Source: Desulfosporosinus sp. BRH_c37 (GTDB lineage: Bacteria; Bacillota; Desulfitobacteriia; Desulfitobacteriales; Desulfitobacteriaceae). From it: a DNA stretch of 35,187 nt. Made by a program: the position numbers and the translations under genes. The DNA is taken from assembly GCA_001516045.1 (NCBI GenBank), contig LOEW01000231.1, positions 1 through 35,187 of the forward strand, in the 5' to 3' direction. Each line of letters starts with the position of its first letter. The stretch's first letter is position 1. Under the pieces are notes generated by a model. It did not search any database. It was not told the origin of the DNA and saw only the letters and a list, made by a program, of their open reading frames with translations. Positions 4,646-23,959 of this stretch are shown here, one piece after another.

Positions 4646-4739
4646 CCAAATGCATATATATCCTCCAAGCCCGTAACCCAGCCCGAGGAGCGCCTTCCTA
4701 CCAAGCGACCCCCGTTCGTTACCACCGTAGCCCTGACCC

Positions 4740-4955: not shown

Positions 4956-5014
4956 AGCGCTCCTCCCGGCGGCCCTACGGTCCTACCCCGTCGCTTGCGT
5001 ACAAAAAGCTCCTC

Positions 5015-5722: not shown

Positions 5723-5751
5723 ATCAGGAGTTCTACACGTCCTCACAATGC

Positions 5752-6120
5752 TTATTCACTTTCCAAGCTGGCGGAGTTTTCTTCCAAGTTTTTTAAGTCA
5801 TCCTCGATCAGAGCGATCCTTTGTACTAAAACCCGATTGCTTGAGCTTAATTTAGAAATCGCCAAGGAGAAATGAATGCACAATACAAACACCAGAACAC
5901 CGAAAATCACGAAGATCGCTGAGGGGGCATAATAAATCCCCATCAGATCGGCTAGGTACTCAACCCCATTTCTCCAGAGGGAAAAGAAGATCATGCCTAA
6001 ACCTGCCACAATCCAAATCAGAGAGTATTCAACCGCCAACCTCCGACGCCGGACTTGTTCAATGATAAAGCCGGTTACAAGTAAGCTCGTTATTAAAACG
6101 ACTAATTGAACGCGTACCAC
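5752..6120 (-). CDS. DUF2304 membrane protein
   Basis: A 122-residue protein with three hydrophobic segments (about residues 3-21, 33-48 and 66-88) and a C-terminal coiled-coil-like tail rich in E, L and S. The EYSLIWIVAGLGMIFFSLW core is typical of DUF2304, a family almost always encoded beside a DPM1-like GT2, as here: the GT2 follows 29 nt downstream. A role as membrane partner of the GT2, or in flipping its lipid product, is plausible but unproven. It starts only 5 nt after the GT39-like gene stop. Confidence 0.82.
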   Translation of the reverse strand: MVRVQLVVLITSLLVTGFIIEQVRRRRLAVEYSLIWIVAGLGMIFFSLWRNGVEYLADLMGIYYAPSAIFVIFGVLVFVLCIHFSLAISKLSSSNRVLVQRIALIEDDLKNLEENSASLESE

Positions 6121-6125
6121 TTTAC

Positions 6126-7478: not shown

Positions 7479-7535
7479 TGACGTCCATCCTTTGCGAGGC
7501 ACGAGGTTTGATACTCGAGGTTCAAATTTTAGTGT
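7413..7535. repeat. Short degenerate CGAGGTTCGAGG-type repeats
   Basis: Imperfect copies of TTCGAGG/TGCGAGG/CTCGAAG occur at 7413-7450, inside the 5' end of the GT39-like gene, and at 7494-7530, just upstream. The same motif occurs inside another gene at 18466-18506. The repeats stay in frame where they lie in coding sequence. Confidence 0.6.
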
Positions 7536-7580
7536 TTTTGTTACTATCCAAGGACGTTTGTTCCCAGTTCACTTGGTGTA

Positions 7581-9929
7581 TTACTGAGCTAATAAACTCT
7601 TCATCAATGTCTCACTAGTAGTACTAATTACCCCAGTTCCTCCTAAGATATAAGTTTTGGTTGTCTTTCCACTCAAGCTGGTTAAGAAGGTCTGAGTATC
7701 TCCATTTAAGCCCTCTGTTGGGACTAAGAGCATCGGGCTCCCCGTTAATGCGGCGAAAGCACCCCCGGATAAGCCGTCCGGGAAATTTTCCCCCGTGGCC
7801 ATAACAAGTGTACTAGGATCTTGATTAAAATACTTTACAATCTGTAACATCGTATCATATTTTGTATTCCCAGCCAAGCGCAATGGACCAAAGCTTTCTA
7901 GGGCACCTCCCTTGCTGTCAAAGGCTGTGGATATGGCAAATTTACCCCCTACGATAATGGTCTTAGACACCTGAAATTCTTTTAATAACTGTTTAGTGGA
8001 TTCAGGCAACGTGCCCTTTTCTGTTAAAAGAATAGGAATTCCAAGAGCGGCTGCCGGAGCAGAAGCGGATAGTGCGTCTGGGAAGCTTGTACTGGAAGCA
8101 AGGATCACCCGATTACTGGGCCCGATCTCTCTGGCAATCTCTACGGCAGTATCGGCAGCCGTGCTACCATAAATCCGCTTCACTGACATATTCGCTCCGC
8201 TGAGCGTGTCCGTGACCGTTCTCTTGATCGCGCCTTCTCCGCCAATGACATAGACTTTAACCCCACCAAGCCGTTTGATTTCTTGCAAGACCGCACTATC
8301 GAGCTGATTAGGCGCAGTTAATAGTAAAGGTGCCTTGAGGTTCTTGGCTAAAGGGGCCGCAGCTAATGCATCTTGAAAACGGTCGACCCGAGCAAGTAGC
8401 ACAAGCGGGGAGGAGTTGTCTGCCCACCCCTCTTTAGATATCTTGATCGCCGTATCTTCGGCCCGCATCCCCGCTAGACGAGTAATGCTCACTTCCACAG
8501 GTGGAGGAGTTGTTGGTGTCGTGGGTGTTGTTGGTGTTGTAGGGGTTGTTGGGGTCGTAGGGGTTGTTGGGGTTGTTGGGGTTGTTGGGGTTGTTGGAGT
8601 ATTGGTTTTTTGATAGCCGATTTTAGCCCGTTCTGTGAGGCTGGCATCTAGCAAAGGCCCCTGCTGAACTGTCAAATAGTATTGAGCTGCTCTCGTATCG
8701 CTGGAGGCTGTCCCTTCAAGGGCTAATTTATCCGCTTCAATTAAGAGTTTGCCATAGGCACTAAGGAGATTAATTTTAGCCTGCGCTGTGATGCTCGCAG
8801 CCAGACTTGAACCCTGCAAAACGATTATATAATCTTGGACAGCACTCATGAGGGAGGAGCCTGAACCTTCAAGCAATAGTTTATCTGCTTCAGTTATGAG
8901 TTTACTTAGGGCACTTTGATATCCTTGGCTAGCCCGTTCTGAGATGGAGCCATCCAGCCTCGGCCCCTGTAGAACGGTCCAGTAGTATTTAGCTGCAGTT
9001 GCGTACGAAGAATCTTTACCCTCGAGTAGCAAAGCATCTGCTTCAGCTAAGAGTTTGCCATAGGAACTGAGGATTTTCTGCGTGACAATCGTTTTATCCA
9101 TAACCAACGGGCTATTATAGGCGGTCATATAGAATCCTAAGGCGTAATACGAACCCCAACGAGCGTAGTTGTACCAATAGTCTCCGTTAGCGGCATCCAC
9201 ACCGGGACCCCCACCGGACAAAATCAACGAACTCGGATCGATCACCAGATCCCCCATATGCGCCGGAGTCGGTGTACTCCAGGAACTGGCGAGGCTGGGA
9301 GGATTTACAGGGGGTAAAATGGACGGAGAGAGTTTTGTGGCCCCTGGGGTGAACGTAATGGCGCTATTGTATTTCTGCCCCATAAGACTAAAGACTGAAT
9401 CCTGATAGGCAGATTTTCCTGTAATGAAATTGGGGTTGTTCCTGGAAGCCCAACTATTATAACCCCACACGGCAAAATACCAGTTTTCCAATACGTTGCG
9501 ATCCCCGTTTCCAAGCTTAGGATAAGCCCGCCACTTCTGGTTGAGCATCTGACAACCGATTTCAATATTGTAGTCAATATTGTTTTTGAGTTTATCGATT
9601 GTCGCTGTGTCCGTGGAAGTATAAGAGGAAATTTGCATAATTCCAATTCCTATACCGTCACGCCCTATTAATGGCTTATCGGTTAAGGGTAATCCTGTCG
9701 TGGGATCAAGTTCATATTGTTTCCACCCGCTCTCCATCCAAGCTATGGATTTAAGGAGCACAGGAGGTATGTTGTACTTATTGGCCATATCCTCTAGCTT
9801 TTTACTAATTTCTGTATAGTATGCCGTTTGATCAGTTGCTGCAAGGACTGGTCTGGCTGGGATTAGCTGCATAATAATGAGTCCGATAATCAATACTGTA
9901 ATAACTTTAGCGTAGTGGCGGTTCCTCAT
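7581..9929 (-). CDS. Secreted SLT-domain protein with three cell-wall-binding type 2 repeats
   Basis: A 782-residue modular protein. A signal peptide (MRNRHYAK, a hydrophobic stretch, cleavage near PVLAA, about residue 30) is followed by a lysozyme-like transglycosylase domain with the catalytic-glutamate motif SIAWMESGW (Glu66) and GIGIMQIS. Residues about 290-441 hold three tandem 51-residue helical repeats (YGKLLxEADxLxLEG...). A (Thr-Pro-Thr) linker of about nine units follows. The last 300 residues contain three CWB2 repeats (PF04122), each opening like RLAGMRAEDTAIKI. It should be anchored non-covalently to wall polymer and cut or remodel peptidoglycan. ATG 9929 is chosen because AAAGGAGGAG lies 8 nt upstream; the longer frame to 9992 would hide the signal peptide. 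Confidence 0.92.
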   Translation of the reverse strand: MRNRHYAKVITVLIIGLIIMQLIPARPVLAATDQTAYYTEISKKLEDMANKYNIPPVLLKSIAWMESGWKQYELDPTTGLPLTDKPLIGRDGIGIGIMQISSYTSTDTATIDKLKNNIDYNIEIGCQMLNQKWRAYPKLGNGDRNVLENWYFAVWGYNSWASRNNPNFITGKSAYQDSVFSLMGQKYNSAITFTPGATKLSPSILPPVNPPSLASSWSTPTPAHMGDLVIDPSSLILSGGGPGVDAANGDYWYNYARWGSYYALGFYMTAYNSPLVMDKTIVTQKILSSYGKLLAEADALLLEGKDSSYATAAKYYWTVLQGPRLDGSISERASQGYQSALSKLITEADKLLLEGSGSSLMSAVQDYIIVLQGSSLAASITAQAKINLLSAYGKLLIEADKLALEGTASSDTRAAQYYLTVQQGPLLDASLTERAKIGYQKTNTPTTPTTPTTPTTPTTPTTPTTPTTPTTPTTPPPVEVSITRLAGMRAEDTAIKISKEGWADNSSPLVLLARVDRFQDALAAAPLAKNLKAPLLLTAPNQLDSAVLQEIKRLGGVKVYVIGGEGAIKRTVTDTLSGANMSVKRIYGSTAADTAVEIAREIGPSNRVILASSTSFPDALSASAPAAALGIPILLTEKGTLPESTKQLLKEFQVSKTIIVGGKFAISTAFDSKGGALESFGPLRLAGNTKYDTMLQIVKYFNQDPSTLVMATGENFPDGLSGGAFAALTGSPMLLVPTEGLNGDTQTFLTSLSGKTTKTYILGGTGVISTTSETLMKSLLAQ
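8515..8598. repeat. 9-nt tandem repeat encoding the Thr-Pro-Thr linker
   Basis: About nine imperfect copies of GTTGTTGGG (plus strand) encode TPT units of the wall protein. Because the unit is 9 nt, copy-number change keeps the frame, so linker length can vary without knocking out the gene. The open plus-strand frame here is only the complement of this repeat. Confidence 0.85.
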
Positions 9930-10042
9930 GCTTCCTACTCCTCCTTTTCTGTACCCTAGGTCATAGACTAATTCTTTATCCCTATTCGACACGTTAGGAG
10001 ATTGTTCCTGCCCAAAAACTATTCATCGACCTCCAATATAAT

Positions 10043-10087
10043 AACAGCTTCTCTAAGTACCCCGAGGGGTTATCTAGAGAAGCTGTT
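10043..10087 (-). terminator. Terminator after the dlt remnant
   Basis: AACAGCTTCTCTA (10043-10055) and TAGAGAAGCTGTT (10075-10087) form a 13-bp stem with an inner ACCCC/GGGGT stem. On the minus strand it is followed by ATTATATT. It lies 20 nt past the last codon of the decayed dltB, so it is probably the original terminator of that operon. Confidence 0.7.
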
Positions 10088-10107: not shown

Positions 10108-10458
10108 TTAGCCTAACCTTCCGGAGAAAACTAAGAAACCAAACATGACAAAGTGTAGGGTAACTAGGATGGCGAGCAAATCCCACATCGGTCCCTTTCC
10201 CCAAAACTTCCGGGTTTTGTTCTTGCGGTCCAAAAAGTCAAAACTAATCATAAGCCCTGCATGATAGAGCCCATAGAGGATATAACGGTGTTGAGTAATC
10301 GTACGTCTTTGATTAACCCATCGCGGATTTCTATAATGATCCCTACCGTCCGGAAGGTTAAATATGAGATCCCTATAAAACCAATCTCGTTCGGGACACA
10401 TTCTGGCCCAATTACGAATTTTTTCACTAAGCATAAAAACACATTCTCCATCTGTCAA
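10108..10458 (-). pseudogene. dltB: dltB remnant (MBOAT D-alanyl transfer protein)
   Basis: DltB is a membrane O-acyltransferase of about 400 residues in the teichoic-acid D-alanylation pathway. Only about 115 codons remain, in two frames. One frame (start near 10451) gives NEIGFIGISYLTFRTV and IIEIRDGLIKDV, the middle of DltB. The other (opening at TTG 10458) gives YILYGLYHAGLMISFDF and LHFVMFGFLVFSG, its C-terminus. The two overlap around 10255-10300, so an out-of-frame deletion has removed roughly 200 codons, including the MBOAT histidine region, and the N-terminal third is also missing. A continuous 116-codon frame exists, but its first half is shifted nonsense, so a functional product is very unlikely. 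Confidence 0.8.
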
Positions 10459-10628
10459 AAGTTATTATAAATAAACGGAGCCGCCGTATGTTGATTCTGG
10501 ACAAAATAGAGAATAAACAAACCCATCAGGATGAGGTAGTAATAGAAAAGTCGACCAAGCCAAACCAGAGTGGGGTTCCATTCTTTAGGCCCCTTCGTGA
10601 TAAAAGCGATCCAGCGATTCATCGACAT
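10455..10628 (-). CDS. dltX: DltX, small teichoic-acid D-alanylation protein
   Basis: A 57-residue protein: a short basic N-terminus (MSMNRWIAFITKGPKEW), one membrane helix (LFYYYLILMGLFILYF) and the C-terminal FIYNNF. Family members end in FIYNEF or similar, and DltX works with DltB and DltD in transferring D-alanine to lipoteichoic acid. It starts at ATG 10628, 7 nt after GGAGAGGA; ATG 10622 is an alternative. The 5' end overlaps the dltD remnant by about 44 nt and the stop overlaps the dltB remnant by 4 nt. It is the only intact member of the remnant operon and so probably has no partners here. Confidence 0.8.
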   Translation of the reverse strand: MSMNRWIAFITKGPKEWNPTLVWLGRLFYYYLILMGLFILYFVQNQHTAAPFIYNNF

Positions 10629-10744
10629 TCACCCATCCTCTCCACCCTAAATGCATAATATCCTGCAAGAAGTAGGACTCATATTCATGGTCACCAAAAC
10701 AACAGAACTGCAATGAACATCGGGCCAAGACGACGAATAGTCAT
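10585..10744 (-). pseudogene. dltD: dltD remnant with large internal deletion
   Basis: Starting at ATG 10744, which overlaps the dltC stop as ATGA, the frame gives MTIRRLGPMFIAVLLFW and then TGA. This is a DltD-like N-terminus with its membrane anchor. One frame over, FGDHEYESYFLQDIMHLG and WRGWVNVDESLDRFYHEG run to TAA 10585, the well-conserved DltD C-terminus. DltD is normally about 390 residues; here roughly 320 codons are missing at a junction near 10697, and the two ends are out of frame. The catalytic Ser/His region of the SGNH-like domain is gone. Confidence 0.82.
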
Positions 10745-10980
10745 TTAGCCTGTCGCTCCTCAAGGTAAGCAATAATTTTATTGGCTGTATCCCAATCCTC
10801 CCGTTCCATTTCCGTGGGTGCCACTTCAATATCAAGTTGTTCTTGAATGGCTACGAACAATTCGATGATTCCAAAAGAATCAAGCCAACCGTTCTTGAAT
10901 AGTTCTAGTTCCGGGTCTCGCTTGATTTCATCCGTGCCACAAATATCGGTTAAAATATCGAGAATCTATTCTCTAATCAA
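10741..10980 (-). pseudogene. dltC: dltC (D-alanyl carrier protein) with a TAG at codon 5
   Basis: The minus strand reads TTG ATT AGA GAA TAG and then stays open for 74 codons to TGA 10741. The product ILDILTDICGTDEI ... FKNGWLDSFGIIELF ... IEVAPTEMEREDWDTANKI is DltC over nearly its whole length (about 78 residues). The phosphopantetheine serine is the one in DSFG. GGGAGAGG lies 6 nt before TTG 10980, so that is the original start, and the amber codon at 10968-10966 interrupts it. No ATG, GTG or TTG lies between the stop and the core, so the gene is probably dead unless the stop is read through. Confidence 0.82.
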
Positions 10981-11028
10981 CGTTTTCCTCTCCCTCTTGA
11001 CACAGTATGTATTGAGACCGTCCGTGGT

Positions 11029-12030
11029 TTATGAGCCGTCTCTCATTTCATCGCTCGTTTCCGGTGATCGCTTAAAATGTCTTACCACTCTGTAATCGAG
11101 GATGGAGGGTATTTTCCCCGCCATGATAACGACACTCCGTGGCCTACGAACCATTAATCCTAACATATGACACGCTGCCTGAAGGGCGTTCCCCTTTTTG
11201 GCTGGTTCCATTAATTGATGGTATAAGTACGAATCAGTTTGTCGTTTCAGACGAATTTCTAAGGCTCGGATCACTTCTGGACATTTTTCTATCAGCAGAT
11301 ATTCGTAATCCTTAGCCTTCATCTTGCTCAATAAGCTTTCCGTAAGCTGGATTAAGCTTTCCGTTGATCTTAGTCTATGGGCAGTCAGGGAATTGGCCCA
11401 TGCCCGGCGGATATATAAGTGTTCAAAGAATACGATCACAGTGGCCCCGTGCAGTAGACATTCCAATAGAAGAACGAAGTCCTCCCCATAAGTAATTTCT
11501 TCTTGATAGTGTAATTCCTTTTGAGAAAGATAATTCCGCCTAAATAATGGCTTCAACGGTCCTAGATCATATTCAATCACATCAACCGCTGATAACTTCC
11601 ACTCGGAAAACGAGAGTTTCCACTTTCCCAAGTGAGTTTCATTCCAGGGATTCTTCTCACCCTCAACATAATTTTGAATATCATCTGCTACAATATCAGC
11701 TTGATGTGCCTCGGCTACCTTAAGCATTCTCTCCAGCCTATTTTTCTCCCACCAATCATCTCCATCAAGGAGGGCAATCCATTCCCCTTTCGCATTTTGG
11801 ATTGCTACGTTGCGAGAATACGATGGGCCGGAATTCTTCTTGTTAATCGTCAAATGAACTCTCGGATCTTTAATCGTCTTGATGATTTGCACGGTATTAT
11901 CCGTTGAAGCATCATCAACAACGATCACCTCAATATTTTGAACCGTTTGTTCTAACGCTGATCGAAGTGCTTGTTCAATATATGCTTGAACATTATAGGT
12001 AGGAATAACCACAGAGACAATAGGTTTCAA
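11029..12030 (-). CDS. GT2 family glycosyltransferase
   Basis: A protein of 333 residues with the GT-A fold start KPIVSVVIPTYNVQAYIE, VIVVDDASTDNT and the metal-binding LLDGDDWW. The central part carries GEDFVLLLECL, the ED motif expected for the catalytic base of inverting GT2 enzymes. It is soluble. The frame reaches 12084, but AGAGGTAG is 5 nt before TTG 12030 and the family begins at this point, so TTG 12030 is chosen. It adds a sugar to the lipid-linked repeat unit or a wall polymer. It is the gene directly upstream of the dlt remnant. Donor and acceptor are not predictable. Confidence 0.87.
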   Translation of the reverse strand: MKPIVSVVIPTYNVQAYIEQALRSALEQTVQNIEVIVVDDASTDNTVQIIKTIKDPRVHLTINKKNSGPSYSRNVAIQNAKGEWIALLDGDDWWEKNRLERMLKVAEAHQADIVADDIQNYVEGEKNPWNETHLGKWKLSFSEWKLSAVDVIEYDLGPLKPLFRRNYLSQKELHYQEEITYGEDFVLLLECLLHGATVIVFFEHLYIRRAWANSLTAHRLRSTESLIQLTESLLSKMKAKDYEYLLIEKCPEVIRALEIRLKRQTDSYLYHQLMEPAKKGNALQAACHMLGLMVRRPRSVVIMAGKIPSILDYRVVRHFKRSPETSDEMRDGS

Positions 12031-12098
12031 GGACACTACCTCTTCCGCCGTTAATACTCTAAAGAAAACTTCGCTGGCACGCAAGCCTTCACAAAGCT

Positions 12099-12162
12099 GG
12101 GGGGACGGTTCTCGGACTTGTACTATAACTCTGACCTCTGGCTTCTGACCTCCGACCTCTGA
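12099..12162. repeat. GGGGACGGTT motif and CTGACCTCTG-type repeats
   Basis: GGGGGACGGTTCTC (12099-12113) is followed by degenerate 7-8-nt units of CTGACCTC/CTTCTGACC (12130-12162) that end 1 nt before the stop codon of the sugar transferase gene (12164). The same two motifs recur at 14278-14351 and 14658-14704. Confidence 0.65.
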
Positions 12163-12163
12163 A

Positions 12164-12820
12164 TTAATAGGCCCCTTTTCCTGTAAAAACCACGAAGACT
12201 GTTTTCCAGAGGATTTTCAGGTCCAACCAGAAACTCCAAAGATGAACATATTTTAAGTCATAGGTCATTGTTTCTCCAAGAGTCAGCTCACTTCGCCCAT
12301 TGATTTGGGCTAATCCTGTAACTCCCGGCAGGACATTAAGACGCTGCAACTGCTCAGGTGTATAGAGCTTTACAAGTTCCGGTACCTCCGGACGAGGACC
12401 AACCAAGCTCATATTCCCGATCAGGATATTTAGAAGTTGAGGCAGCTCATCCAAACTTGTTTTTCTGAGAAAACGACCGCTTCGGGTTATTCTCGGGTCA
12501 TCTTTCTCTTGAAAGACGAAGTTCTCAAGATCCTTCACCTTTTCAAGTTTGTCCTTCATCAAGGCTTCTGCGTTCTGCACCATCGTGCGAAACTTATAAA
12601 TCGTATAGGATTTCTGCCCAAGACCAATTCGTGTCTGCTTGAAGATCGCCGGTCCCGAGGAGTCTAACCGAATCCAGAGAACAATAAACAGCCAAAGCGG
12701 AGATACCAACACAAGAAGGGTTAGGGCCGCCACAAAATCCAACAACCGCTTCGCCGCAAGCTGCCAACCAGCATATTCGCGCTCTTTAGTTTCCGCGGGT
12801 AACGAAGAACTCTGACCCAT
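12164..12820 (-). CDS. Undecaprenyl-phosphate sugar-1-phosphate transferase
   Basis: A 218-residue member of the bacterial sugar transferase family (PF02397). After one hydrophobic segment (LLDFVAALTLLVLVSPLWLFIVLW) come the hallmark motifs YKFRTM, RITRSGRFLRKTSLDELPQLLN, MSLVGPRPE and PGVTGLAQINGR. It moves a sugar phosphate from a UDP-sugar to undecaprenyl phosphate and so starts the repeat unit on the inner face of the membrane. The frame extends to 13027, but AAAGGAGA precedes ATG 12820 by 9 nt, and the longer N-terminus is translated repeat sequence, so the short form is right. It follows the aminotransferase, consistent with an amino-sugar donor. Confidence 0.92.
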   Translation of the reverse strand: MGQSSSLPAETKEREYAGWQLAAKRLLDFVAALTLLVLVSPLWLFIVLWIRLDSSGPAIFKQTRIGLGQKSYTIYKFRTMVQNAEALMKDKLEKVKDLENFVFQEKDDPRITRSGRFLRKTSLDELPQLLNILIGNMSLVGPRPEVPELVKLYTPEQLQRLNVLPGVTGLAQINGRSELTLGETMTYDLKYVHLWSFWLDLKILWKTVFVVFTGKGAY

Positions 12821-13056
12821 CTTGATATATCTCCTTTCTTCACGATGTGCTCCGCCGGCAGCTGAGCCAAGGTCCCCTCCCGCCGTCCATGGCTCCGGTG
12901 ACACTCGGCCGTCCTGCAAGAAGGCTAATTCGTGCGAAGACAGTGTCTTCGGGCCAGCGGATAGCGAATTGCCGGGCATCCTGCCGGAGCCGGAGGTTGA
13001 GACGTTAGTTTGGCCTGCAAAACGCATGGTCTGAACTGTTGCAAATAAAGACTCGC
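12821..13056. other. Spacer with nested inverted repeats
   Basis: The gap holds GGCTCCGG (12891-12898) and CCGGAGCC (12984-12991) as an outer stem around the perfect palindrome CGAAGACAGTGTCTTCG (12935-12951). That palindrome is also found at 4774-4790 and, in degraded form, at 268-284 and 304-320. A frame is open across it as an extension of the sugar transferase gene, but no ribosome site supports its use. Confidence 0.6.
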
Positions 13057-14223
13057 CTACTTTCGGAAACGCTCCACAACTCTCCTTACCGCGTCAACTA
13101 CATCTCTCGCGTCTTGCATACTCATCTTCGGATATAGGGGCAAAGAGATAATCCGCTCGAAGACTCCTTTTGCAACAGGGAAATCCTCCGGTTTATACCC
13201 ATACGTGTCGCGGTAATATGGATGCATGTGCAGCGGAATAAAGTGGACACTAGTTCCTATGTTCTCTTCTTTAAGTTCTTCAATGAATTTCTCACGGTCT
13301 ATAGATAGTTTATCCAGATTCAACTTGATGATATACAAATGCCACGCATGGCGCGCATACTCAAGTTCAAGCGGCGCTTCAAGCTCCGGCATTTTTGCAA
13401 ACTCCGCATAATAATATTCCACAAGTTCCTGGCGGATTCCTTGCATCCGTTCGAGTTTAGCCAACTGAGATAGTCCCAGCCCGGCCATAATGTCTGACAT
13501 GTTGTCTTTATACCCCGGAGTAAGGATTTCATAGTACCACGAACCGGATGCAGCATATCGATTCCAAGCGTTCCGACTCATACCATGCGTACTCATAATC
13601 CGGATCTTATTATACAAGGCTTCATCATTCGTAGTGACCATACCGCCTTCGCCAGTGACCAAATTCTTGGTTGCGTAAAATGAGAAAGCGGTGGCGTCCC
13701 CGATCGAACCAATCGTTATCCCTTTATACTGAGTATAAACGGCATGAGCCGCGTCTTCCAGTACAAAAAGGTTATGTTCTCGGGCAATCTCCATGATTTC
13801 ATCCATTTCACAGGGGTGCCCAGCAATATGTACGGGGATAATTGCTTTAGTTCGAGACGTGATTTTCTCTCGAATTTTCTGTGGATCAATGTTCATCGTG
13901 ACTGGGTCAATATCGACTAACACGGGTATAGCCCCTGTATGAATCACGACATTAGCTGAAGCTGCAAAGGTCATCGGGGTGGTCAAAACTTCGTCCCCTT
14001 CCCCGATTCCGGCTGCCACAAGGGAAAGATGCAACGCGGCAGTACAAGAGTTAGTCGCCACGGCATATTTTGCCCCGACATATTCGGCAAACTGTTTCTC
14101 AAACTTCATAGTTTTGGGACCCTTAGCCAACCAGCCTGACTTTAGAGTGTCCACTACCTCAGCGATATCGTCCTCTTCAATCAAGGGGAGGGCGTAGGGT
14201 AAGAACTCTTCACGTTTACTCAT
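13057..14223 (-). CDS. DegT/DnrJ/EryC1-family sugar aminotransferase (PglE/ArnB-like)
   Basis: A PLP-dependent aminotransferase of 388 residues. Asp157 in LEDAAH contacts the pyridine ring, and Lys186 in SFYATKNL forms the Schiff base. The C-terminal half has GYKDNMSDIMAGLGLSQL, a pattern of enzymes that aminate C4 of UDP-4-keto sugars (PglE, ArnB, PseC groups). A likely partner is the 4,6-dehydratase at 31794-33674, giving UDP-4-amino-4,6-dideoxy-GlcNAc; this is inference. ATG 14223 follows AAAAAGGAGGTAACAAAT. It precedes the initiating sugar transferase gene, which may use the product. Confidence 0.9.
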   Translation of the reverse strand: MSKREEFLPYALPLIEEDDIAEVVDTLKSGWLAKGPKTMKFEKQFAEYVGAKYAVATNSCTAALHLSLVAAGIGEGDEVLTTPMTFAASANVVIHTGAIPVLVDIDPVTMNIDPQKIREKITSRTKAIIPVHIAGHPCEMDEIMEIAREHNLFVLEDAAHAVYTQYKGITIGSIGDATAFSFYATKNLVTGEGGMVTTNDEALYNKIRIMSTHGMSRNAWNRYAASGSWYYEILTPGYKDNMSDIMAGLGLSQLAKLERMQGIRQELVEYYYAEFAKMPELEAPLELEYARHAWHLYIIKLNLDKLSIDREKFIEELKEENIGTSVHFIPLHMHPYYRDTYGYKPEDFPVAKGVFERIISLPLYPKMSMQDARDVVDAVRRVVERFRK

Positions 14224-14277
14224 ATTTGTTACCTCCTTTTTAGAAGCGCTTACTAAGCCTCTGCAGAAAGCAGACAG

Positions 14278-14351
14278 GGGGACGGCAGACAGGGGGACGG
14301 TTCTCCTGTCTTACAGATCCAACGAGTCTGACGCATAAACCGTCCCCCTGT
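14278..14351. repeat. Inverted ACAGGGGGACGGTT repeat
   Basis: ACAGGGGGACGGTT (14289-14302) and AACCGTCCCCCTGT (14338-14351) are exact inverted copies. GGGGACGGTTCTCCTGTC (14293-14310) recurs with one change at 27887-27904, and a shorter form is at 12099-12113. The repeat lies between the orphan hicB-like gene and the aminotransferase. The hairpin could terminate the hicB-like transcript, but no T-tract follows. Confidence 0.65.
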
Positions 14352-14379
14352 GTCCGCCCACTAGGACTCCGCAGATCCC

Positions 14380-14592
14380 CTAAAGCAATTCTATTAACTC
14401 GACATCCCCTATGGGGATAGTCAATCCCTCAATGACTAAGGCTTCGAGAAAGCCCTCTATTGCCTCCTGAATATGCTCAAGTGCTTCTCTTCGATCATCG
14501 CCCTGAGTGACGCAGCCTGGAAGAGAGGGGACGGTGACCGTTAAGCCTCCACTTTCATTCTTCTCAAGAATAACCTTAAATCTTCTTTGCAT
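14380..14592 (-). CDS. Orphan HicB-like protein
   Basis: A 70-residue protein with the HicB_like core SGGLTVTVPSLPGCVTQGD (residues 14-32) and a helix REALEHIQEAIEGFLEAL. AAGGAGG precedes ATG 14592 at good spacing. There is no HicA-like gene on either side; the neighbours are a GT4 and an aminotransferase. Stand-alone HicB-fold proteins exist and their role is unclear. It may be an antitoxin that lost its toxin, or may act on a toxin elsewhere, such as the HicA at 3375-3605. Confidence 0.8.
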   Translation of the reverse strand: MQRRFKVILEKNESGGLTVTVPSLPGCVTQGDDRREALEHIQEAIEGFLEALVIEGLTIPIGDVELIELL

Positions 14593-14657
14593 TCCAAAGA
14601 GCCTCCTTAAGTGGATTTATCCGTTGACTAACTTATCCATCGTCCAGCATCTGTCGA

Positions 14658-14704
14658 TCTGACTTCCGGCGTCCGACCTCCGGCCTCTGACTTCTGACCT
14701 CTGG
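14658..14704. repeat. Degenerate CTGACTTCTGACCTC repeats
   Basis: Short units of CTGACTTC, CCGACCTC and CTGACCTC in tandem end 1 nt before the stop codon of the GT4 gene (14706). The same arrangement is seen 1 nt past the stop of the sugar transferase gene at 12164. Confidence 0.65.
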
Positions 14705-14705
14705 T

Positions 14706-15917
14706 TTATATTCCAAGTTCTCTGAGCCAAGCTTGGATAATTTCTGACCAAGTATAGTGGTCTGAGACAAACTGTCGCCCTTTTCTACCCATCTCTCTGC
14801 GATCAGGATTCTCCTTCAGTTCGACAATGGCCCGTGCTAGTTCTGCGCTGTTTTCTGGCTCAACAACCACACCGCCACCCGAAGAAAGGACCAGTTCAGC
14901 CGCCTCTCCTTCCCCAGAATAGATCACCGGGACTGCTGACCCGAGCGCAGGGAACATTTTCGAGGGTCGGGCCCCCTCAAAAAGCTTATTCTTCTTTAGA
15001 GGAACAATGCTCGCGGAGGACAAGGAGAAATATCTAGGCATTTCCTGAACTGGTTGAAAATCTACAAATATGACACTGCTTAATTCCTTTTCCTTCACGA
15101 GCGCTTCGAGCATCGGCTTTTCCGTACCATCGCCCACAAATAAAAATCGAAGGTCTGTCTTATCTTTCAGAATTTCTGCCGTTCGAATCACGGATTCAAG
15201 GCCCTGAGCATAGCCCATGGTTCCGGCGTAAATCAAAACAAAATCTTCAGCATTAATACTTAGCTTCTTAGCCATCTCAAGATCGCGTTCCCGCGGTGCA
15301 AATAGTTCGAGGTTCACTCCGTTCGGTAAAAAGGTCACTTTTTCCTTGGGCACGCCGCGTTGCAATAACGAGTCCCGAATTCCTTCTGTTTGGCAAGATA
15401 TCTTCCACGCTTTGCGGTAAAGTAGTTTTTCCAGACTCTCGGCTGCCTCAATCATCCAGCGGCTGTTAACAAGTCCCAGCGCGACGGCCGATTCTGGCCA
15501 GAGATCAGAAATATTCATAATAATTCGAGTGCGAGTAAACCATCCATAGACTAAAGCTGTGATGCCAAGAAAGAGAGGTGGGGATTCAAAAAATATAATA
15601 TCTTGTTTCCCTGCTTTGCTTAAGCCCCAAAAAGACGAAAAAACAAAGGAAAAATAATTAAGCAAACGCTTCCAAAACCGTCCTCGCTGCACGGGATAAA
15701 TCCACGTTCGCCAAACCGGAATCCCCTCTACTTCATCCTTCATCCTGAAGTGTCCACGATAATGTGGCGGGATCACGCCGCTCGGGTGATTCGGAAACGC
15801 AGTAACCACTGTAACCTGATGTCCGTTACGCTGTAGCCCTTTTGCGAGCTCCTTGAGCCGAACCTGGGCTGCGCCTGCCTCCGGCGGGAAGTATTGTGTT
15901 AGCATTAAGATGCGCAA
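14706..15917 (-). CDS. GT4 glycosyltransferase (WbuB/WcaI-like)
   Basis: A GT-B fold protein of 403 residues. The N-terminal motif LTQYFPPEAGAAQVRLKELA with FPNHPSG and ISDLWPESAVALG is characteristic of the WbuB/WcaI group, which includes N-acetyl-fucosamine transferases. The donor-binding half has LPNGVNLELF, YAGTMGYAQG and FVGDG. The usual EX7E appears as FEGARPSKMF. The start is TTG 15917 (MRILMLT); GGAG lies about 11 nt upstream, somewhat distant. It follows the FemAB-like gene. Substrates are not certain. Confidence 0.87.
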   Translation of the reverse strand: MRILMLTQYFPPEAGAAQVRLKELAKGLQRNGHQVTVVTAFPNHPSGVIPPHYRGHFRMKDEVEGIPVWRTWIYPVQRGRFWKRLLNYFSFVFSSFWGLSKAGKQDIIFFESPPLFLGITALVYGWFTRTRIIMNISDLWPESAVALGLVNSRWMIEAAESLEKLLYRKAWKISCQTEGIRDSLLQRGVPKEKVTFLPNGVNLELFAPRERDLEMAKKLSINAEDFVLIYAGTMGYAQGLESVIRTAEILKDKTDLRFLFVGDGTEKPMLEALVKEKELSSVIFVDFQPVQEMPRYFSLSSASIVPLKKNKLFEGARPSKMFPALGSAVPVIYSGEGEAAELVLSSGGGVVVEPENSAELARAIVELKENPDRREMGRKGRQFVSDHYTWSEIIQAWLRELGI

Positions 15918-15955
15918 TCAGACCGCCGCTCCTTCATCTCTTCTTTAAGGCACAT

Positions 15956-16963
15956 TCAAAAAAATATGCCTAGGAATTTCTTAATCTTTTCACCGTGTTT
16001 AGCATAAACGCTCCGGCCTACTCGGGCTGCTATAGTTCGGTTGCGGTAGGCATAGAGGTAATTCCGCTCAGAACTTCCGAAGCTTTTTTTAAATTTGGCG
16101 ATACTTGGGATATTAGCTCCTACCATATCGTAGAGCTGAATCCCCATGGTTTGAGCTCGCTTTAAGTAGGCCCACTGAAGGAGATTATTGGGTACGACCT
16201 TATTGTACTCTCGATCTGAGGCTCCGTCTAGGTAATATCCGACAAACCGATCCCGTGGGAAAATCATGCCGGCAATAATTTTTCCTTCATAACGGGCAAG
16301 TAAAACCACCAAATCTCCGCTCGGATATAGGTTCTGCCAAAGGGCTGTGAAGTATTCCTTGCTAAATGGGGGTTCCTTCTCCTGACGACGATAAACGCTG
16401 CACGAGAGTTCATAGTAGGGCTCCAGCCATTCTTCAAGGGTCTGAGGTTCAACCACTTCCACCCCTGATTTCTCTGCTTTGCGAATAGCATTGCGACAAC
16501 GTACTTCCAGCCCTGCCCAGAGAACCTCCTCATCCTTGGGAATAGGCAATTCCAAGGTGATTAATTCCTCCACAGTATACCCATTTTGGGCGAGAACATC
16601 TTTTTCCAGCAGATCAGGAAGACCTAGTTCAAGATAATCTAAGTGTTCTTGCTTAGAATACCTCTCGAGGGCCGGTAAAACTTCAGTCATGGGAATCGAA
16701 CCTACCGGTCCACTATGAGGGGTTGCGGCGCCGGATAGTGGACTTCCCGCTAATTTTAGGAGGCTCATTTTCCGCTCTACCAAGGGCAATAGGCCTCTTA
16801 ATTTTCCTTCGTCGTCAAATATACCCAGACGGTTCACTCTTAAACCAAAACCCACTTCGATGACATCTTGCCATTCCCAGCGGTGAAAAAGAGACCCCTG
16901 ACCTATCGCCTTCTGAAAGTCTTGCCACGCTTCGCGCTCAATTGGCTTTAAAGTTAGGCCCAC
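15956..16963 (-). CDS. FemAB-like GNAT transferase
   Basis: A 335-residue protein of the FemAB/peptidoglycan-bridge superfamily, built from tandem GNAT-like domains. Visible features are the N-terminal SLFHRWEWQDVIE, the middle RCRNAIRKAEKSGVEV and GKIIAGMIFPRDRFVGYYLDGAS followed by NNLLQWAYLKRAQTMG, a pattern seen in FemAB proteins of exopolysaccharide loci rather than classical FemX. The family adds aminoacyl groups to peptidoglycan precursors; in polysaccharide clusters the acceptor is probably an amino sugar, which is inference. GTG 16963 overlaps the end of the upstream polymerase gene by 10 nt and GGAGTG precedes it, so the two are coupled. Confidence 0.82.
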   Translation of the reverse strand: MGLTLKPIEREAWQDFQKAIGQGSLFHRWEWQDVIEVGFGLRVNRLGIFDDEGKLRGLLPLVERKMSLLKLAGSPLSGAATPHSGPVGSIPMTEVLPALERYSKQEHLDYLELGLPDLLEKDVLAQNGYTVEELITLELPIPKDEEVLWAGLEVRCRNAIRKAEKSGVEVVEPQTLEEWLEPYYELSCSVYRRQEKEPPFSKEYFTALWQNLYPSGDLVVLLARYEGKIIAGMIFPRDRFVGYYLDGASDREYNKVVPNNLLQWAYLKRAQTMGIQLYDMVGANIPSIAKFKKSFGSSERNYLYAYRNRTIAARVGRSVYAKHGEKIKKFLGIFF

Positions 16964-18297
16964 TTATCTTCACTCCTATCCAAATCCAACAAACGTAACA
17001 GCATAGCCATACTAATCCAGATGATTGGATCTTCAAAAAATCGCGCTTCGGCTTGTGAGCTGATAAACACTGTTGTAATCCACAAGAAATATCCTACCCC
17101 AAGAAGATACTGTTCGAATTCGAATCCGCTCTGATCGAGAGCACCCTTGCGTAATCGCCCAAGTATCCGCACCAAGCTTAACCAAACCCACGCCAGTGCT
17201 GCCAGTCCCATTAAGCCTAGTTCTGCTGCAATGGTTAGTATAGTTGTATGAGAGAGAGTCGCTCCTTCGGCATCTGGAATCACTGTCTTTAGGCTTAAGT
17301 AATGAGTTTTAAACATCATTTCAAATCCACCCAAACCCACTCCAAAGATCGGATGATCCTTAAACATCTCCCAGGCTACTTTCACTAAATATTTCCGCTG
17401 GGCGTCCAAAGCGCCAAAACCTTCCCTGAACGTCAGCAGACGCTGCCAGACGGTCGGGCGCATAGCCAAAATCACGGCTCCAATCAACCCTAGAAGCCCA
17501 ATCGGTTGGATCATTCGCTTACGAGGAATTAGAATTAGCAGCAGGATTATGACGATAACTAAGGTAAGCAATCCACTGCGTGATAGGGTTATGGCCAAAG
17601 CTCCTAATAACCCCAAGAGCGATCCTAAATACACAACTTGAGTCCCTGCTTTGGTGTTGGTGTTATGGTATCTTAAAATTAAATTAGCCACAATGGCCAA
17701 AACGAGGTAGCGGGCAAAAATATTCGGATCGACAAAGGTTGCATTAACCCGAGCAAGCATCCCCTCAGCCAGATATTCCCGCCAAATAAAATTATGGGTC
17801 AATACTTCATAGAGGGCCAGTGGGACCAAGGCAACTCCGACCCAATGCCCAACCTGTAAAAGAAGGAGAACGTGTTTACGCTCCACAAGTAAACAGATAC
17901 TGAGGTAAAGTAAAAATAGCGTCAGTAAGCGAACGCCTTCCAAGGCTGTTTTAGCTGGTCCAACGGAATAAAGGATGCTGACCGCCCCGACCGCGATGTA
18001 AATCATCAGGGCCCGCGTCAGAAAATGATTAAGAGTTACTCTCAGTTCTTGTCGTTTCCTTGGATCAATCCAGAGTTGCCAAAGTGCGGCCCCGATAATA
18101 CCTACTGTCAGCAGACGAGCAAGGCTCCCTAGCTGAGACCCGAGGGAGCCCAACGGAGGGAACCAAGTGGTAGAAATCTCTAAAGCAACTGCCCCTACAA
18201 GTAACGAGATTAGAACAGTTGGTTTTATTTTTCCCCAATATACCACCAAGCCTACACTGAGAAGGAAAAATCCCCATTGTAAGAAGAGCTGCCTCAC
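16954..18297 (-). CDS. O-antigen ligase/polymerase family protein (Wzy_C)
   Basis: An integral membrane protein of 447 residues with 11-12 hydrophobic segments. The large loop near two-thirds of the chain holds MFKDHPIFGVGLGGFEMMF with SHTTILTIAAELGLMGL after it, the Wzy_C signature (PF04932). Such proteins polymerise lipid-linked repeat units or ligate polymer to an acceptor outside the membrane. It is one of two such proteins in the locus; the other is at 25087-26421. GTG 18297 lies 1 nt after the stop of the preceding gene with AGAGGA upstream, so the genes are coupled. Confidence 0.88.
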   Translation of the reverse strand: MRQLFLQWGFFLLSVGLVVYWGKIKPTVLISLLVGAVALEISTTWFPPLGSLGSQLGSLARLLTVGIIGAALWQLWIDPRKRQELRVTLNHFLTRALMIYIAVGAVSILYSVGPAKTALEGVRLLTLFLLYLSICLLVERKHVLLLLQVGHWVGVALVPLALYEVLTHNFIWREYLAEGMLARVNATFVDPNIFARYLVLAIVANLILRYHNTNTKAGTQVVYLGSLLGLLGALAITLSRSGLLTLVIVIILLLILIPRKRMIQPIGLLGLIGAVILAMRPTVWQRLLTFREGFGALDAQRKYLVKVAWEMFKDHPIFGVGLGGFEMMFKTHYLSLKTVIPDAEGATLSHTTILTIAAELGLMGLAALAWVWLSLVRILGRLRKGALDQSGFEFEQYLLGVGYFLWITTVFISSQAEARFFEDPIIWISMAMLLRLLDLDRSEDKWA

Positions 18298-18298
18298 C

Positions 18299-20092
18299 TT
18301 AATCCTCTCCTTTCACGTCTAGTGTAACCAGGGCTTGAGCTGGAAAATCAATATAACCCTCTCCCACCTCGTAAGGGACGGAAGCCGATACAATTCTGTT
18401 CGGCTCAAGATGGAGGCGAACCCGAACGGGCGGGATCGACGGTCTTAGCTTTTCGTCTTGGTCTTGGCGGTTCGAACCTCGCGCATCGCGCCTCGAACCT
18501 CGATCTTGATCCGGTATGGCACACGAAATCTGCCATTGTGTCCCGTCGATTGAAAGTGATACCTCGCAGGCGCGCCTTAGGGTAAACCAACGCAGCACGT
18601 CACGTGGGACAGCAATCCAAGCACTGTCAATTCGTGCTTGGGCAATCAGACGTTCATAGACTTCACCCCAAAAACGTGGCGCGGTAAAACTCTGATTGTG
18701 CCAAAGTAAACTCACTGCCCCGCCGAAGCGTAAGGCATAGTCTAGAATCGGTTTAGCCTTATGAAAAGCGTCCTCGCGGTTCAAATCGAGGTGCTCTTCT
18801 CCGAGAAGGGCACCGTCTTGAATATGAAGTGGAAGCTCCCAAAGCGTTTGGCAATTTAACGGATGATATGGTTGAAGTGTACCGGCCCGAAAGCCTACGA
18901 CTTCATTAAATCCGACAGTCGCATCATACTGAAACCCGCCGTCTTCCAGCAGCTTATAGGATTGGGGCGACTTAAAATAGAGCCAGTGCATGCGTACCCC
19001 AATATCCTTCTGCTCGGTTAGATTGGCAATGCGATCATATTCAGCCCGAGCCGCCGGGAGGTCATGCCAAGCATCAATCCCATGTACCCCTGCTTCCCAT
19101 CCACCTTCTTCCAAGTGATTGAGCAGTTCTTTGTAAGTATTTACGTCATAATGCGACGCCCGGTTGGCCGGCGCTCTAACCGTATCATTTTTTCTGTCTT
19201 TGTCTTTGTTTTTGTCGTTGTTTTTGTCTTTGTTATTACTGCTATCTGTCTCATTATCTTGGTCATTATTTTTCCGCATTCGTTCCGGAAAAATCCCCGG
19301 GTTCTCCGGATAGGGCATAAAATATAGACTTGATCGAACTTCTAGGCGTTCCTCCAGCGCGATAAGTGTAGGCAGGGCTCTTTGCCAGACATCTTGACCT
19401 ATGCCAACTTTAGCAAGCCAAGTCCTTGCCATTTCCCAAATTGCTCGAAAGTATTCTGAAGAATGGACTTTTTCTGCTCGCCAACGTTTCCAGTTCAAAA
19501 CAGAACTACGGTAAAAATACCCTAAGAACGTACGGGCGATCGGCATTTCCTTAAGGCTTAAGACATCGATGTCATGGGTTAGAGTCAGGGCATAAGCGTA
19601 TCCCCACGGAGCGGCCGGAAGTTCTAGGTAATTTGTGACCTCATGGCGAAGTACCTCTCGAATTTCTTCAAGCATTAGATCAAGAATGGGCTCACTGACG
19701 CCCACTTCCGTATGCTCTCGACCCTCCATCAGAAGACGTGCGCCTTCAAGGCCCAGCTGAAACGGAAATGTCTTTAGCCTAAAGCCTAAGGAATCACCGG
19801 TCACTGGCCCACAGACCAAGATTAGAGGTTTATCCTTATCTTGTCTTGAAAAGTTCAGCATGAGTCCCTTCAAGTAGGAGAGAGAAATTCCATCCACTAT
19901 AATAGCATCATAATTCAGAAATTCTAAGTTGTCCGTTAAGGCGTCTTTCCCTAGTACAGCTTCCCCAACTGCACGATAGGAAACACCCAAGAGACCCGCG
20001 ATCTCCCTGTAGATTGCCACGAGCGGATCTGCGACGAAAAAACCAATTCGCCCTGATTTTGATTCTTGATTTACGTCTTGTGCTTCGAACAC
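18299..20092 (-). CDS. Polysaccharide-deacetylase-like protein with low-complexity inserts
   Basis: A 597-residue protein. After an N-terminal domain of about 165 residues it has ALTLTHDIDVLSLKE, the divergent NodB acidic motif seen in large deacetylase-like proteins, then YFMPYPENPG, GVHGIDAWHDL and LWHNQSF further on. No signal peptide or membrane helix is visible. Two segments look inserted: residues about 274-302, an N/D/K-rich stretch encoded by hexamer-like repeats, and about 529-543, encoded by CGAGGTTCGAGG-type repeats. Both keep the frame. The GTG start at 20092 overlaps the epimerase gene by 22 nt and AGAGGG lies 8 nt before it. Activity is unproven. Confidence 0.65.
   Translation of the reverse strand: MFEAQDVNQESKSGRIGFFVADPLVAIYREIAGLLGVSYRAVGEAVLGKDALTDNLEFLNYDAIIVDGISLSYLKGLMLNFSRQDKDKPLILVCGPVTGDSLGFRLKTFPFQLGLEGARLLMEGREHTEVGVSEPILDLMLEEIREVLRHEVTNYLELPAAPWGYAYALTLTHDIDVLSLKEMPIARTFLGYFYRSSVLNWKRWRAEKVHSSEYFRAIWEMARTWLAKVGIGQDVWQRALPTLIALEERLEVRSSLYFMPYPENPGIFPERMRKNNDQDNETDSSNNKDKNNDKNKDKDRKNDTVRAPANRASHYDVNTYKELLNHLEEGGWEAGVHGIDAWHDLPAARAEYDRIANLTEQKDIGVRMHWLYFKSPQSYKLLEDGGFQYDATVGFNEVVGFRAGTLQPYHPLNCQTLWELPLHIQDGALLGEEHLDLNREDAFHKAKPILDYALRFGGAVSLLWHNQSFTAPRFWGEVYERLIAQARIDSAWIAVPRDVLRWFTLRRACEVSLSIDGTQWQISCAIPDQDRGSRRDARGSNRQDQDEKLRPSIPPVRVRLHLEPNRIVSASVPYEVGEGYIDFPAQALVTLDVKGED
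18466..18506. repeat. CGAGGTTCGAGG-type repeat inside a gene
   Basis: Degenerate copies of GGTTCGAACCTCG/GCGCCTCGAACC lie inside the deacetylase-like gene and encode DRGSRRDARGSNRQD. The motif matches that at 7413-7535. It adds about 14 residues without breaking the frame. Confidence 0.6.
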
Positions 20093-21159
20093 GAAGTAAC
20101 CCTCTCTTCGATCGCAGCCACGATTTGATCACTGGCTCGGCCGTTTCCATATAGATTTTCCAGATAAGGTGGCAGAGGGTTTTTGCGGTAACTCGTAACG
20201 GCAGCAACGATATCCTCTGTGTTCGCGCCCGTAAGCGTATTCCAACCCGTATGGACGGTTTCTACCCACTCTGTTTCATCCCTTAGGGTCACACAAGGAA
20301 CCTGCCAAAGGTAGGCTTCTTTCTGCACACCGCCCGAGTCTGTCAGAATGAGCTCGGCCTCTTTTTCTAAAATTATCATTTCCAAATAACCAACCGGCTC
20401 GATAACTTCAACATTTTCCGGTAAAGTCATTTGGTTATCTAAGATAAGTTTCTTCGTCCGCGGATGAATGGGAAGTACGATATGCCCATCAATTTGGGCA
20501 AAGGCCTTAAGAATTCCTTCCAGTCGGCTTAGGTTATCTGTATTTTCAGCTCGATGCACGGTGGCTAAGAGATACGATTTCTGGGGATAGTGGAGGTTTC
20601 CGGCAATATTTCTTTTCTCTGCCCGCCGAGCATGAAAATATAGGGCATCCGCCATGACATCACCGGTCCGTACTACTCCATCAATTAGGCCTTCTTGAGC
20701 AAGGTTTTTCACGGCCTGGTCGGTCGGGCAGAACATTAGGCTTGAGATATGATCCGTCAATACGCGGTTCACCTCTTCCGGCATCTGTCGATTATAACTG
20801 CGTAGCCCAGCTTCAACGTGAGCGATCGGAATATGCAGCTTTGAAGCAGCCAAAGCTCCTGCTAACGTGGAGTTTGTGTCCCCATACACGAGAACCCAGT
20901 CAGGTTTTTCCTTGAGGAGCACCTCTTCAACACCCGTTAACATTTCGCCAGTTTGCGCGCCATGCTGCTTTGAGCCAACGCCCAGAAAGTAGTCAGGTTT
21001 GGGAATCCCTAACTCCTCGAAAAACACATCGGACATTTGGTAATCGTAATGCTGGCCGGTATGCACGATCTTTTCCTCGTGATTCTTTCTTAGAGCTTCT
21101 GACAGAGGCGCGGCTTTAATGAATTGAGGCCTTGCACCCAAGACGGTAATTACTTTCAT
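20071..21159 (-). CDS. Non-hydrolysing UDP-GlcNAc 2-epimerase family (WbpI-like)
   Basis: A 362-residue GT-B-fold epimerase with GARPQFIKAAPLS at the start, Asp94 in YGDTNSTLAGAL, Glu116 in HVEAGLRS, Glu128/129 in MPEEVNR and VHRAENTD (His202, Glu205), the expected catalytic set. The wording (PQFIKAA, FFEELGIP, EKPDWVLVYGDTNST) resembles the WbpI group that epimerises UDP-GlcNAc(3NAc)A more than classical WecB, and WbpA/B/D/E-like genes are present in the window. Either UDP-ManNAc or UDP-ManNAc(3NAc)A could be the product; the latter is favoured by context. ATG 21159 follows GAAAGGAATG. Confidence 0.88.
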   Translation of the reverse strand: MKVITVLGARPQFIKAAPLSEALRKNHEEKIVHTGQHYDYQMSDVFFEELGIPKPDYFLGVGSKQHGAQTGEMLTGVEEVLLKEKPDWVLVYGDTNSTLAGALAASKLHIPIAHVEAGLRSYNRQMPEEVNRVLTDHISSLMFCPTDQAVKNLAQEGLIDGVVRTGDVMADALYFHARRAEKRNIAGNLHYPQKSYLLATVHRAENTDNLSRLEGILKAFAQIDGHIVLPIHPRTKKLILDNQMTLPENVEVIEPVGYLEMIILEKEAELILTDSGGVQKEAYLWQVPCVTLRDETEWVETVHTGWNTLTGANTEDIVAAVTSYRKNPLPPYLENLYGNGRASDQIVAAIEERVTSCSKHKT

Positions 21160-21267
21160 GATAAGTTACATTCCTTTCACCGTGCTCAAGATAAACTCCT
21201 TGTTTCCTACTCCTTGGTACTTCCTTGGAATACTTCATGAGTTACTGTTTACTGTTCCTAATTCATC

Positions 21268-21320
21268 CAATCAGACTCCCATTTCTACCAAGTAGGAGTG
21301 GTACCCCGTACTCTGCTTCA
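21268..21320. repeat. Partial copy of the terminal-repeat element header
   Basis: CTCCCATTTCTACC and ACCCCGTACTCTGCTTC resemble the sequence before the 35-kb repeat (CTCCCACTTCTACG, ACCCCGTACTCAGCTTC) and the start of the 2812 element. The similarity stops after GCTTC, so this is a fragment. The rest of the gap 21160-21340 shows nothing recognisable. Confidence 0.5.
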
Positions 21321-21340
21321 TATTTTGATTCTAATTTTTG

Positions 21341-22765
21341 TTAGCTTAGCTTAACCCGATGCGTTACTTGACGCAGGATATACCCGCCGATGCGTTGAAA
21401 ATCTCTATCGAGGCTAATCAAGATTATCAGGAAAAGAACTCCGGCAATAGTTGCTGAGGCCAAAGGATGAAGATGGCGCAAGAAAAAGGCTGTGATGCCC
21501 ATGGCTCCTGAGGCTAAAACAACAACCGGCAGTTGCCGCCACGTCTGAACCTTATAAACCTGGTACCGAACAATCCCATAGTACAGGATAAACACGTATC
21601 CTTCGGTGATCAGTGTCGCCACACTAGCTCCATAGATTCCATAACGGGGAATGACATAAAGATTGAGAGCGACTTTCAATAATGCGGCACCGCCCTGAAT
21701 CCAGACTCGAGTCCATTGTCGATTCGTGGTAGTCAACACATCTCCTAGGGAGAAACTTAAACATTCCAGGGCAAAAACCCAACTTACAAGCATCATGATC
21801 GGGATAGACTGTGGAAAACGATTGTTGTATAGCCAAGTGAGCAAGGGGTCGGCCAAAACGAATAGAAGCACACTGCCAGGGATGCCGACCGCACTCAGGA
21901 CTTTAAAGATTTTTTCAATGGTTCCCCGATGTTGCTCCTTACTCTCCACCCCGAGCTGGAAGAGAATAGGATACAGTACGCTGGTCAAAATCCCAGGGAT
22001 AAATAAGAGGATCGCTATCAAACCATAAGCTGCCTTATAGATTCCTACTTCAAGAGGTGGAAGCATTAGGGAAAGCATGAACATGTCTATCTGAAAATAG
22101 ACATATGAAAATATAACTGCCATTCCATAAGGCAATCCTCCCTTAAGCATTTCAATTAGACGACGTGGTTTAAATTCAAGGCGAATGTGTTTCCGTAAGT
22201 GGATATATAACATCAGTGAAATCAAAACAGTTGTCGCCAGTTGGGCAACTGAAATCATTAATACATTCCCTTTGTAAATCACAACTAGGAGTGTCAAGGC
22301 GCCAATCAGGAATGTAGAAAAAAACTGATACATAGCGGCAAGATACATTTGCTGCTTTGTCTGAAAATAGTTATAAATTGTGCAATGTAAAGCGTTTAAC
22401 CCACCAGCTAAACCAAAGACGAAAACCATGTTCTGAATAGACTGGTTATAGACTTTAGGCATTAAGACGAGCATAAGTGCGAAGATAGCCAGTAAGGAAA
22501 AAAACTTAAATAAGAGGGTATTCCCTAGAAACAGTGGTAAGACGCTTTCATCCCGTGAACCCTCTTGGACCATGTAGTTACTCAAGCCGAAATCCGCAAA
22601 GAGAATAAACGTACCGACAAAGGCAAGCGCTACACTGTATTCGCCAAATATATCGGGGCCTAAATAACGAGCGACTGAGATTCCCACGACAGCGGAAATC
22701 GCTTTGGAAAGCACACTGGCCACGCTTAACGCGGCAGCATTCTTAAGGACTAATCGAAGTTCCAC
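21341..22765 (-). CDS. Oligosaccharide flippase, Wzx family
   Basis: A 474-residue membrane protein with about 12-14 helices. The N-terminal ALSVASVLSKAISAVVGISVARYLGPDIFGEYSVAL is the classic MVF/polysaccharide-synthase (PF01943) start, and a second-half LYNNRFPQSIPIMMLV is also typical. It should flip the undecaprenyl-linked repeat unit to the outer face for polymerisation. GTG 22765 is preceded by AAGGGAG. It lies between a GT4 gene and the epimerase. It is the only full-size flippase in the window. Confidence 0.93.
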   Translation of the reverse strand: MELRLVLKNAAALSVASVLSKAISAVVGISVARYLGPDIFGEYSVALAFVGTFILFADFGLSNYMVQEGSRDESVLPLFLGNTLLFKFFSLLAIFALMLVLMPKVYNQSIQNMVFVFGLAGGLNALHCTIYNYFQTKQQMYLAAMYQFFSTFLIGALTLLVVIYKGNVLMISVAQLATTVLISLMLYIHLRKHIRLEFKPRRLIEMLKGGLPYGMAVIFSYVYFQIDMFMLSLMLPPLEVGIYKAAYGLIAILLFIPGILTSVLYPILFQLGVESKEQHRGTIEKIFKVLSAVGIPGSVLLFVLADPLLTWLYNNRFPQSIPIMMLVSWVFALECLSFSLGDVLTTTNRQWTRVWIQGGAALLKVALNLYVIPRYGIYGASVATLITEGYVFILYYGIVRYQVYKVQTWRQLPVVVLASGAMGITAFFLRHLHPLASATIAGVLFLIILISLDRDFQRIGGYILRQVTHRVKLS

Positions 22766-22779
22766 TGGGGTACTCCCTT

Positions 22780-23958: not shown

Positions 23959-23959
23959 T

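Follow-up and report, generated by a model that had tools for sequence, protein, structure and literature searches.

The window, as we call the whole analysed stretch of 35,187 nucleotides, is one entire contig (C231) of a Desulfosporosinus draft genome (6.2 Mb in 313 contigs, estimated as 94% complete with 6% contamination). It carries a surface-polysaccharide cluster on the minus strand and gave no match when compared with plasmids. Within this cluster, from 10980 to 10108 on the minus strand, we found the remnants of dltC, dltD, dltX, dltA and dltB (Table 1). This is the order of the intact operon located at the same site in other Desulfosporosinus, the genus to which the close relatives of the window dltC also belong. 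The initial annotation had reported dltC, dltD, dltX and dltB in that order, and profile matches together with alignment to the intact syntenic operons bear this out. However, it had not seen dltA, whose first 16 codons or so survive, fused to about codon 105 of dltB.

Table 1. Features of the dlt remnant and of the surrounding polysaccharide locus (positions are those of the window).
Feature	Position	Strand	Basis and remarks
dltC pseudogene	10741..10980	-	Full length; TTG start at 10980; TAG (10968-10966) is codon 5
dltD 5' remnant, ~16 codons	10697..10744	-	Aligns with intact dltD in G028 and further genomes; stops at the ~1.06 kb deletion
dltD 3' remnant, ~36 codons	10585..10696	-	Pfam DltD, E 1e-12, and alignment; frame differs from that of the 5' piece
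dltX, intact frame, 57 codons, ends FIYNNF	10455..10628	-	Pfam DltX, above cut-off
dltA 5' remnant, ~16 codons, MLSEKIRNWARMCPER	10387..10434	-	Aligns with the beginning of dltA in G028, G012 and further genomes
dltB middle remnant, codons ~105-135	10297..10386	-	Profile positions ~105-140 of 380; alignment; joined to dltA by the ~1.9 kb deletion
dltB 3' remnant, last ~60 codons	10108..10296	-	TIGR04091 positions 322-380 of 380; alignment; follows the 544-bp deletion
Conserved hairpin 3' of dltB, terminator-like	10043..10087	-	Without T-run in the window; kept in intact operons and also in dlt-less G010
Recombination boundary	about 11000..11065	-	Upstream like dlt-less G027/G017, downstream like dlt-bearing G028/G012
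Polysaccharide cassette of the dlt-less type (B)	11029..26421	-	Gene-by-gene identities; trees
GT2 glycosyltransferase gene, end of the incoming cassette, adjoins dltC	11029..12084	-	Of the loci compared, only those of dlt-less G027 and G017 have it at this position
SLT/CWB2 cell-wall-binding protein gene, A side of the boundary	7581..9992	-	Sister of dlt-bearing G028, 99/99

Regarding the single genes, dltC is of full length and interrupted by a stop, as had been claimed. The 74 codons past this stop matched NF003464 (E 8e-26) and TIGR01688 (E 1e-24) in a profile search, both above the cut-off, and the motif LDSFGIIEL, examined for the phosphopantetheine-attachment serine, is kept; the TAG blocks normal translation. 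The TGA stop of dltC overlaps the start of dltD in an ATGA (10744-10741), which is the overlap described at first. dltX, likewise described as intact, encodes a small membrane protein with a conserved end motif, and its DNA is 61-84% identical to that of nine intact copies. As anticipated, similarity to DltD and DltB falls on separate parts of each protein. We found no full-length DltA ligase, DltB MBOAT protein or DltD in the window, where dltA is down to about 16 codons, dltB to two pieces and dltD to its two ends. The proposal that the terminator is still in place holds as far as the hairpin beyond dltB is conserved, but the terminator scan did not call this hairpin.

Compared with the intact operon of G028, the DNA alignment leaves the window without around 1,055 bp inside dltD, around 1,897 bp from about codon 17 of dltA to about codon 105 of dltB, and 544 bp inside dltB. 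These three deletions are clean gaps in the base-level alignment to the intact syntenic operons of several species and their lengths shift the reading frame, in agreement with the initial statement that dltD and dltB had suffered large deletions leaving their ends out of frame. About 0-4 bp are shared at the joints, judged against the relatives, too little for long repeats or assembler overlaps to account for the deletions; an insertion sequence or a long repeat as their cause was thus ruled out. The operon was killed by three illegitimate, that is, nearly homology-free, deletions and by a nonsense mutation in dltC. Furthermore, intact syntenic copies in the relatives, disabling lesions and no intact copy found in this genome characterize a pseudogene relic. 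On these alignments, the genes once formed a single operon, which several deletions have wrecked, as first proposed.

We searched the genome family by family for dlt genes. The window dltC is the only dltC in it, no match to DltA or DltB reaches its cut-off and, as the initial annotation led us to expect, the rest of the 94% complete draft yielded no intact dlt operon; the assembly being a draft, an intact copy could be missing from it. An MBOAT match on contig C49, considered as a second DltB, reached 140 bits against a cut-off of 375 and was assigned to another family, and the many AMP-ligases were all far below the DltA cut-off and belong to other families as well. The only other DltD match, on contig C241 (L087:7959-8810), starts ~176 residues late relative to its closest full-length homologue, that of G012, with 78% identity over residues 177-445, so that by its alignment it is probably another pseudogene. 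Dispersed intergenic repeats, some of them self-inverted, occur in the window at 110-262, 2780-3090, 4742-4951 and 35021-35187; copies of the window's intergenic repeats are found in other loci of the genome, including beside this truncated dltD paralogue and an LtaS-like gene.

Regarding the age of the loss, the dN/dS over 230 remnant codons was 0.100 against G028 and 0.102 against G012, and it was 0.108 between the intact operons of these two genomes. No relaxation of selection is visible in the remnant frames at this dN/dS of 0.10, nor was there an excess of private nonsynonymous changes (10 nonsynonymous to 11 synonymous, like the intact copies). Because the values resemble those among intact operons, the dlt loss would be recent and its lesions young; the lack of relaxation is consistent with a very recent loss and, as a rough estimate, free drift covers at most about a tenth of the window branch.

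The surroundings of the remnant are a mosaic of two locus types, which we call A (with dlt) and B (without dlt). According to protein identities, the flanks (26448-34947 upstream and 419-9992 downstream) are common to dlt-bearing and dlt-less genomes. The genes at 14706-25087 are 66-90% identical to genes of dlt-less G027, G020, G003, G001 or G002, not each gene in each genome, and in dlt-bearing G028, G012, SRJS8 and D. hippei they are missing or represented by distant paralogues only. The aminotransferase (AT) tree places the window with the dlt-less types (100/100), as sister of G010 (99/99); for AT alone, a position next to the A types survived the AU test (p 0.22). The tree of the undecaprenyl-phosphate sugar transferase (GTsug) places the window with mostly dlt-less types (100/100), and here a position with the dlt-bearing A types was rejected (AU test, p 1.7e-7). 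With AT and GTsug on the dlt-less side and SLT with dlt-bearing G028 (99/99), gene trees thus conflict on either side of a sharp boundary at around 11065-11000, which is what a cassette exchange leaves. Judged from identities and trees, the polysaccharide locus upstream of dlt is one replaced by recombination, and the rebuilding of the locus suggested by the initial annotation is upheld.

Two genes of this region show peculiarities of their own. The GTsug frame as listed has an N-terminal extension of ~69 residues (window 12820-13027). The DNA of this extension is found again at intergenic sites of G012, G001 and OKU5, and the true start is probably near 12820. In the SLT/CWB2 protein, a long linker of TPT repeats separates the enzymatic part from three CWB2 repeats, and homologues of this protein occur in 28 of the 30 genomes of the genus.

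Among the genomes examined at the locus, seven Desulfosporosinus have the intact dltC-dltD-dltX-dltA-dltB operon at the same place, preceded by AT and GTsug and followed by the SLT/CWB2 gene that also comes after the remnant in the window. Intact dltC was found in 16 of the 29 other genomes (13 are without dltC), and the marker of cassette B, a protein of 597 aa (18299-20092 in the window), in 12 of them. Both are found together in three genomes only (G009, G014 and G026), in which dlt is on another contig than the cassette or more than 1 Mb away from it. The marker and dltC co-occur less than expected (3 of 16 versus 9 of 13; p 0.0095 in a Fisher test without correction for kinship). About 8 changes are needed to place the presence of dlt on the rpoB tree. 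At the matching junction of the other dlt-less genomes, no dlt remnants were detected by tblastn in the regions fetched. Besides, G023 (L090:5968-9156) has dltC-X-A-B without dltD beside groESL, and a full-length dltD on another contig.

Two genomes of the window's clade have lost dlt in other ways. In G010 dlt is wholly lost, and the hairpin that ends the operon remains after an A-type GTsug. G025 (L089:7752-8082, minus strand) keeps only the dltD 3' end and an intact dltX, elsewhere in the polysaccharide locus. We rejected common descent of this remnant and that of the window, the former being much more diverged and having other limits and another position; by sequence, the two are apparently independent. 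The complete loss in G010 and the own remnant of G025 indicate that dlt loss recurs. As for the arrangement in G010 (L139:2690-3720), it has a B-type AT but an A-type GTsug, which means a different crossover, and its hairpin is followed by a GNAT-like gene.

We think it probable, although far from certain, that the window preserves a dltC-D-X-A-B operon which was inherited vertically, was left stranded where a cassette swap ends, and became a wreck only recently. In relatives, this operon forms the end of a polysaccharide locus, just before an SLT/CWB2 gene. In the lineage of the window, the upstream polysaccharide genes would have been swapped by recombination for a cassette type without dlt, and a right-hand crossover within ~65 bp before dltC would have stranded the operon at the junction, where the nonsense mutation and the three illegitimate deletions would have broken it. 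We infer that the swap would have come first and caused the dlt loss, having removed either the need for the operon or its promoter. Nevertheless, the three genomes with the B marker and an intact dltC elsewhere argue against cassette B excluding Dlt function.

It is possible, if rather unlikely, that the wreck is real and recent but decayed on its own under relaxed selection in the clade, the cassette swap being coincidental or later. Such a decay would fit the frequent loss of dlt in the genus (the genomes without dltC and the changes on the rpoB tree given above), the separate remnant of G025 in another position and the truncation of the second dltD of this genome. It agrees less well with a wreck situated within ~65 bp of the crossover, and with the shortage, not corrected for kinship, of genomes having both the B marker and dltC, where dlt moreover lies elsewhere.

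There is hardly any chance that the remnant is partly functional, with dltX and a dltA'-dltB' frame of 116 aa kept for use, and we know of no role for DltX without the other Dlt proteins. dltX is intact both here and in the independent remnant of G025 and its frame ends in the conserved FIYNNF, but with only 57 codons and a recent loss it easily survives by chance, DltX has been described as belonging to the dltXABCD operon (PMC5541007), and the 116-aa frame translates the middle of dltB in the wrong frame. Similarly, it is very improbable that the deletions are misjoins of the draft genome or a product of binning: the 313 contigs and the 6% contamination would allow for this, and the normal dN/dS of the remnant would also be expected from an intact operon wrongly assembled, but 0-4 bp at the joints are too little for a misjoin by a k-mer assembler, the TAG in dltC is a separate lesion, and the genes next to the remnant match their counterparts in the relatives from end to end where enough sequence was compared.

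DltA, DltB and DltD are needed for D-alanylation and, as all three are gone, D-alanylation by the dlt pathway could not work; going by its gene content, the living cell has presumably lost it. Each of the 30 genomes has LtaS-like genes. This one has two matches of LtaS size; the one examined is closest, among solved structures, to lipoteichoic acid synthases and scores below the strict equivalog cut-off. Since these genes persist, the lipoteichoic backbone may well persist too. This touches the initial proposal that the wall polymer changed when the locus was rebuilt: the replacement stands and the polymer may have changed with it, but the LtaS-like genes are still there. A further reading, which we consider doubtful, is that in Desulfosporosinus Dlt is a module of one polysaccharide cassette and D-alanylates the polymer of that cassette, or one displayed together with it, instead of or in addition to lipoteichoic acid; the swap would then remove the substrate and the operon would rot. 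The presence of LtaS-like genes throughout, the TagB/F family in only one of the 30 genomes and the tendency of dlt to come and go with the cassette fit this pattern. However, a strict tie between the two is hard to reconcile with the genomes that have cassette B and carry dlt elsewhere.

We found no report of dlt loss in Desulfosporosinus in the open-access literature searched. Cassette exchange and pseudogene formation are each already known, and the window is a clear and recent example of them. Here an envelope-charge pathway seems to be observed very soon after its loss, right where a surface-polysaccharide swap ends, and close relatives show dlt in its intact, broken and completely erased states. 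Its value lies in the clear anatomy and in a testable link between the swap and the dlt loss: whether the exchange of surface polymers makes D-alanylation dispensable, and what Dlt modifies in these sulfate reducers, can now be tested.

As in the dltXABCD operon of Bacillota, which acts in the D-alanylation of teichoic acids (PMC5541007), all five families are recognisable in the window, with overlapping starts and stops, and the intact Desulfosporosinus relatives have DltA, B, C, D and X at full length. By contrast, the Desulfosporosinus order dltC-D-X-A-B is a rotation of that operon, lies inside a polysaccharide locus and is dead in the window. Surface-polysaccharide or S-layer cassettes are also known to be exchanged by homologous recombination, for example in the diversification of cell-surface features in Clostridioides difficile (PMC7677006). 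There too, a block for a surface polymer is swapped between conserved flanks and adjoins a gene for a CWB2-type wall protein; the window differs in that the exchange boundary is marked by a scar, the D-alanylation operon of the outgoing type. Finally, joints of 0-4 bp and one nonsense mutation are like those of ordinary bacterial pseudogenes arising from short-homology deletions. Unlike these, the window has a whole five-gene pathway with several lesions whose frames still look selected, which suggests that the decay is very recent.
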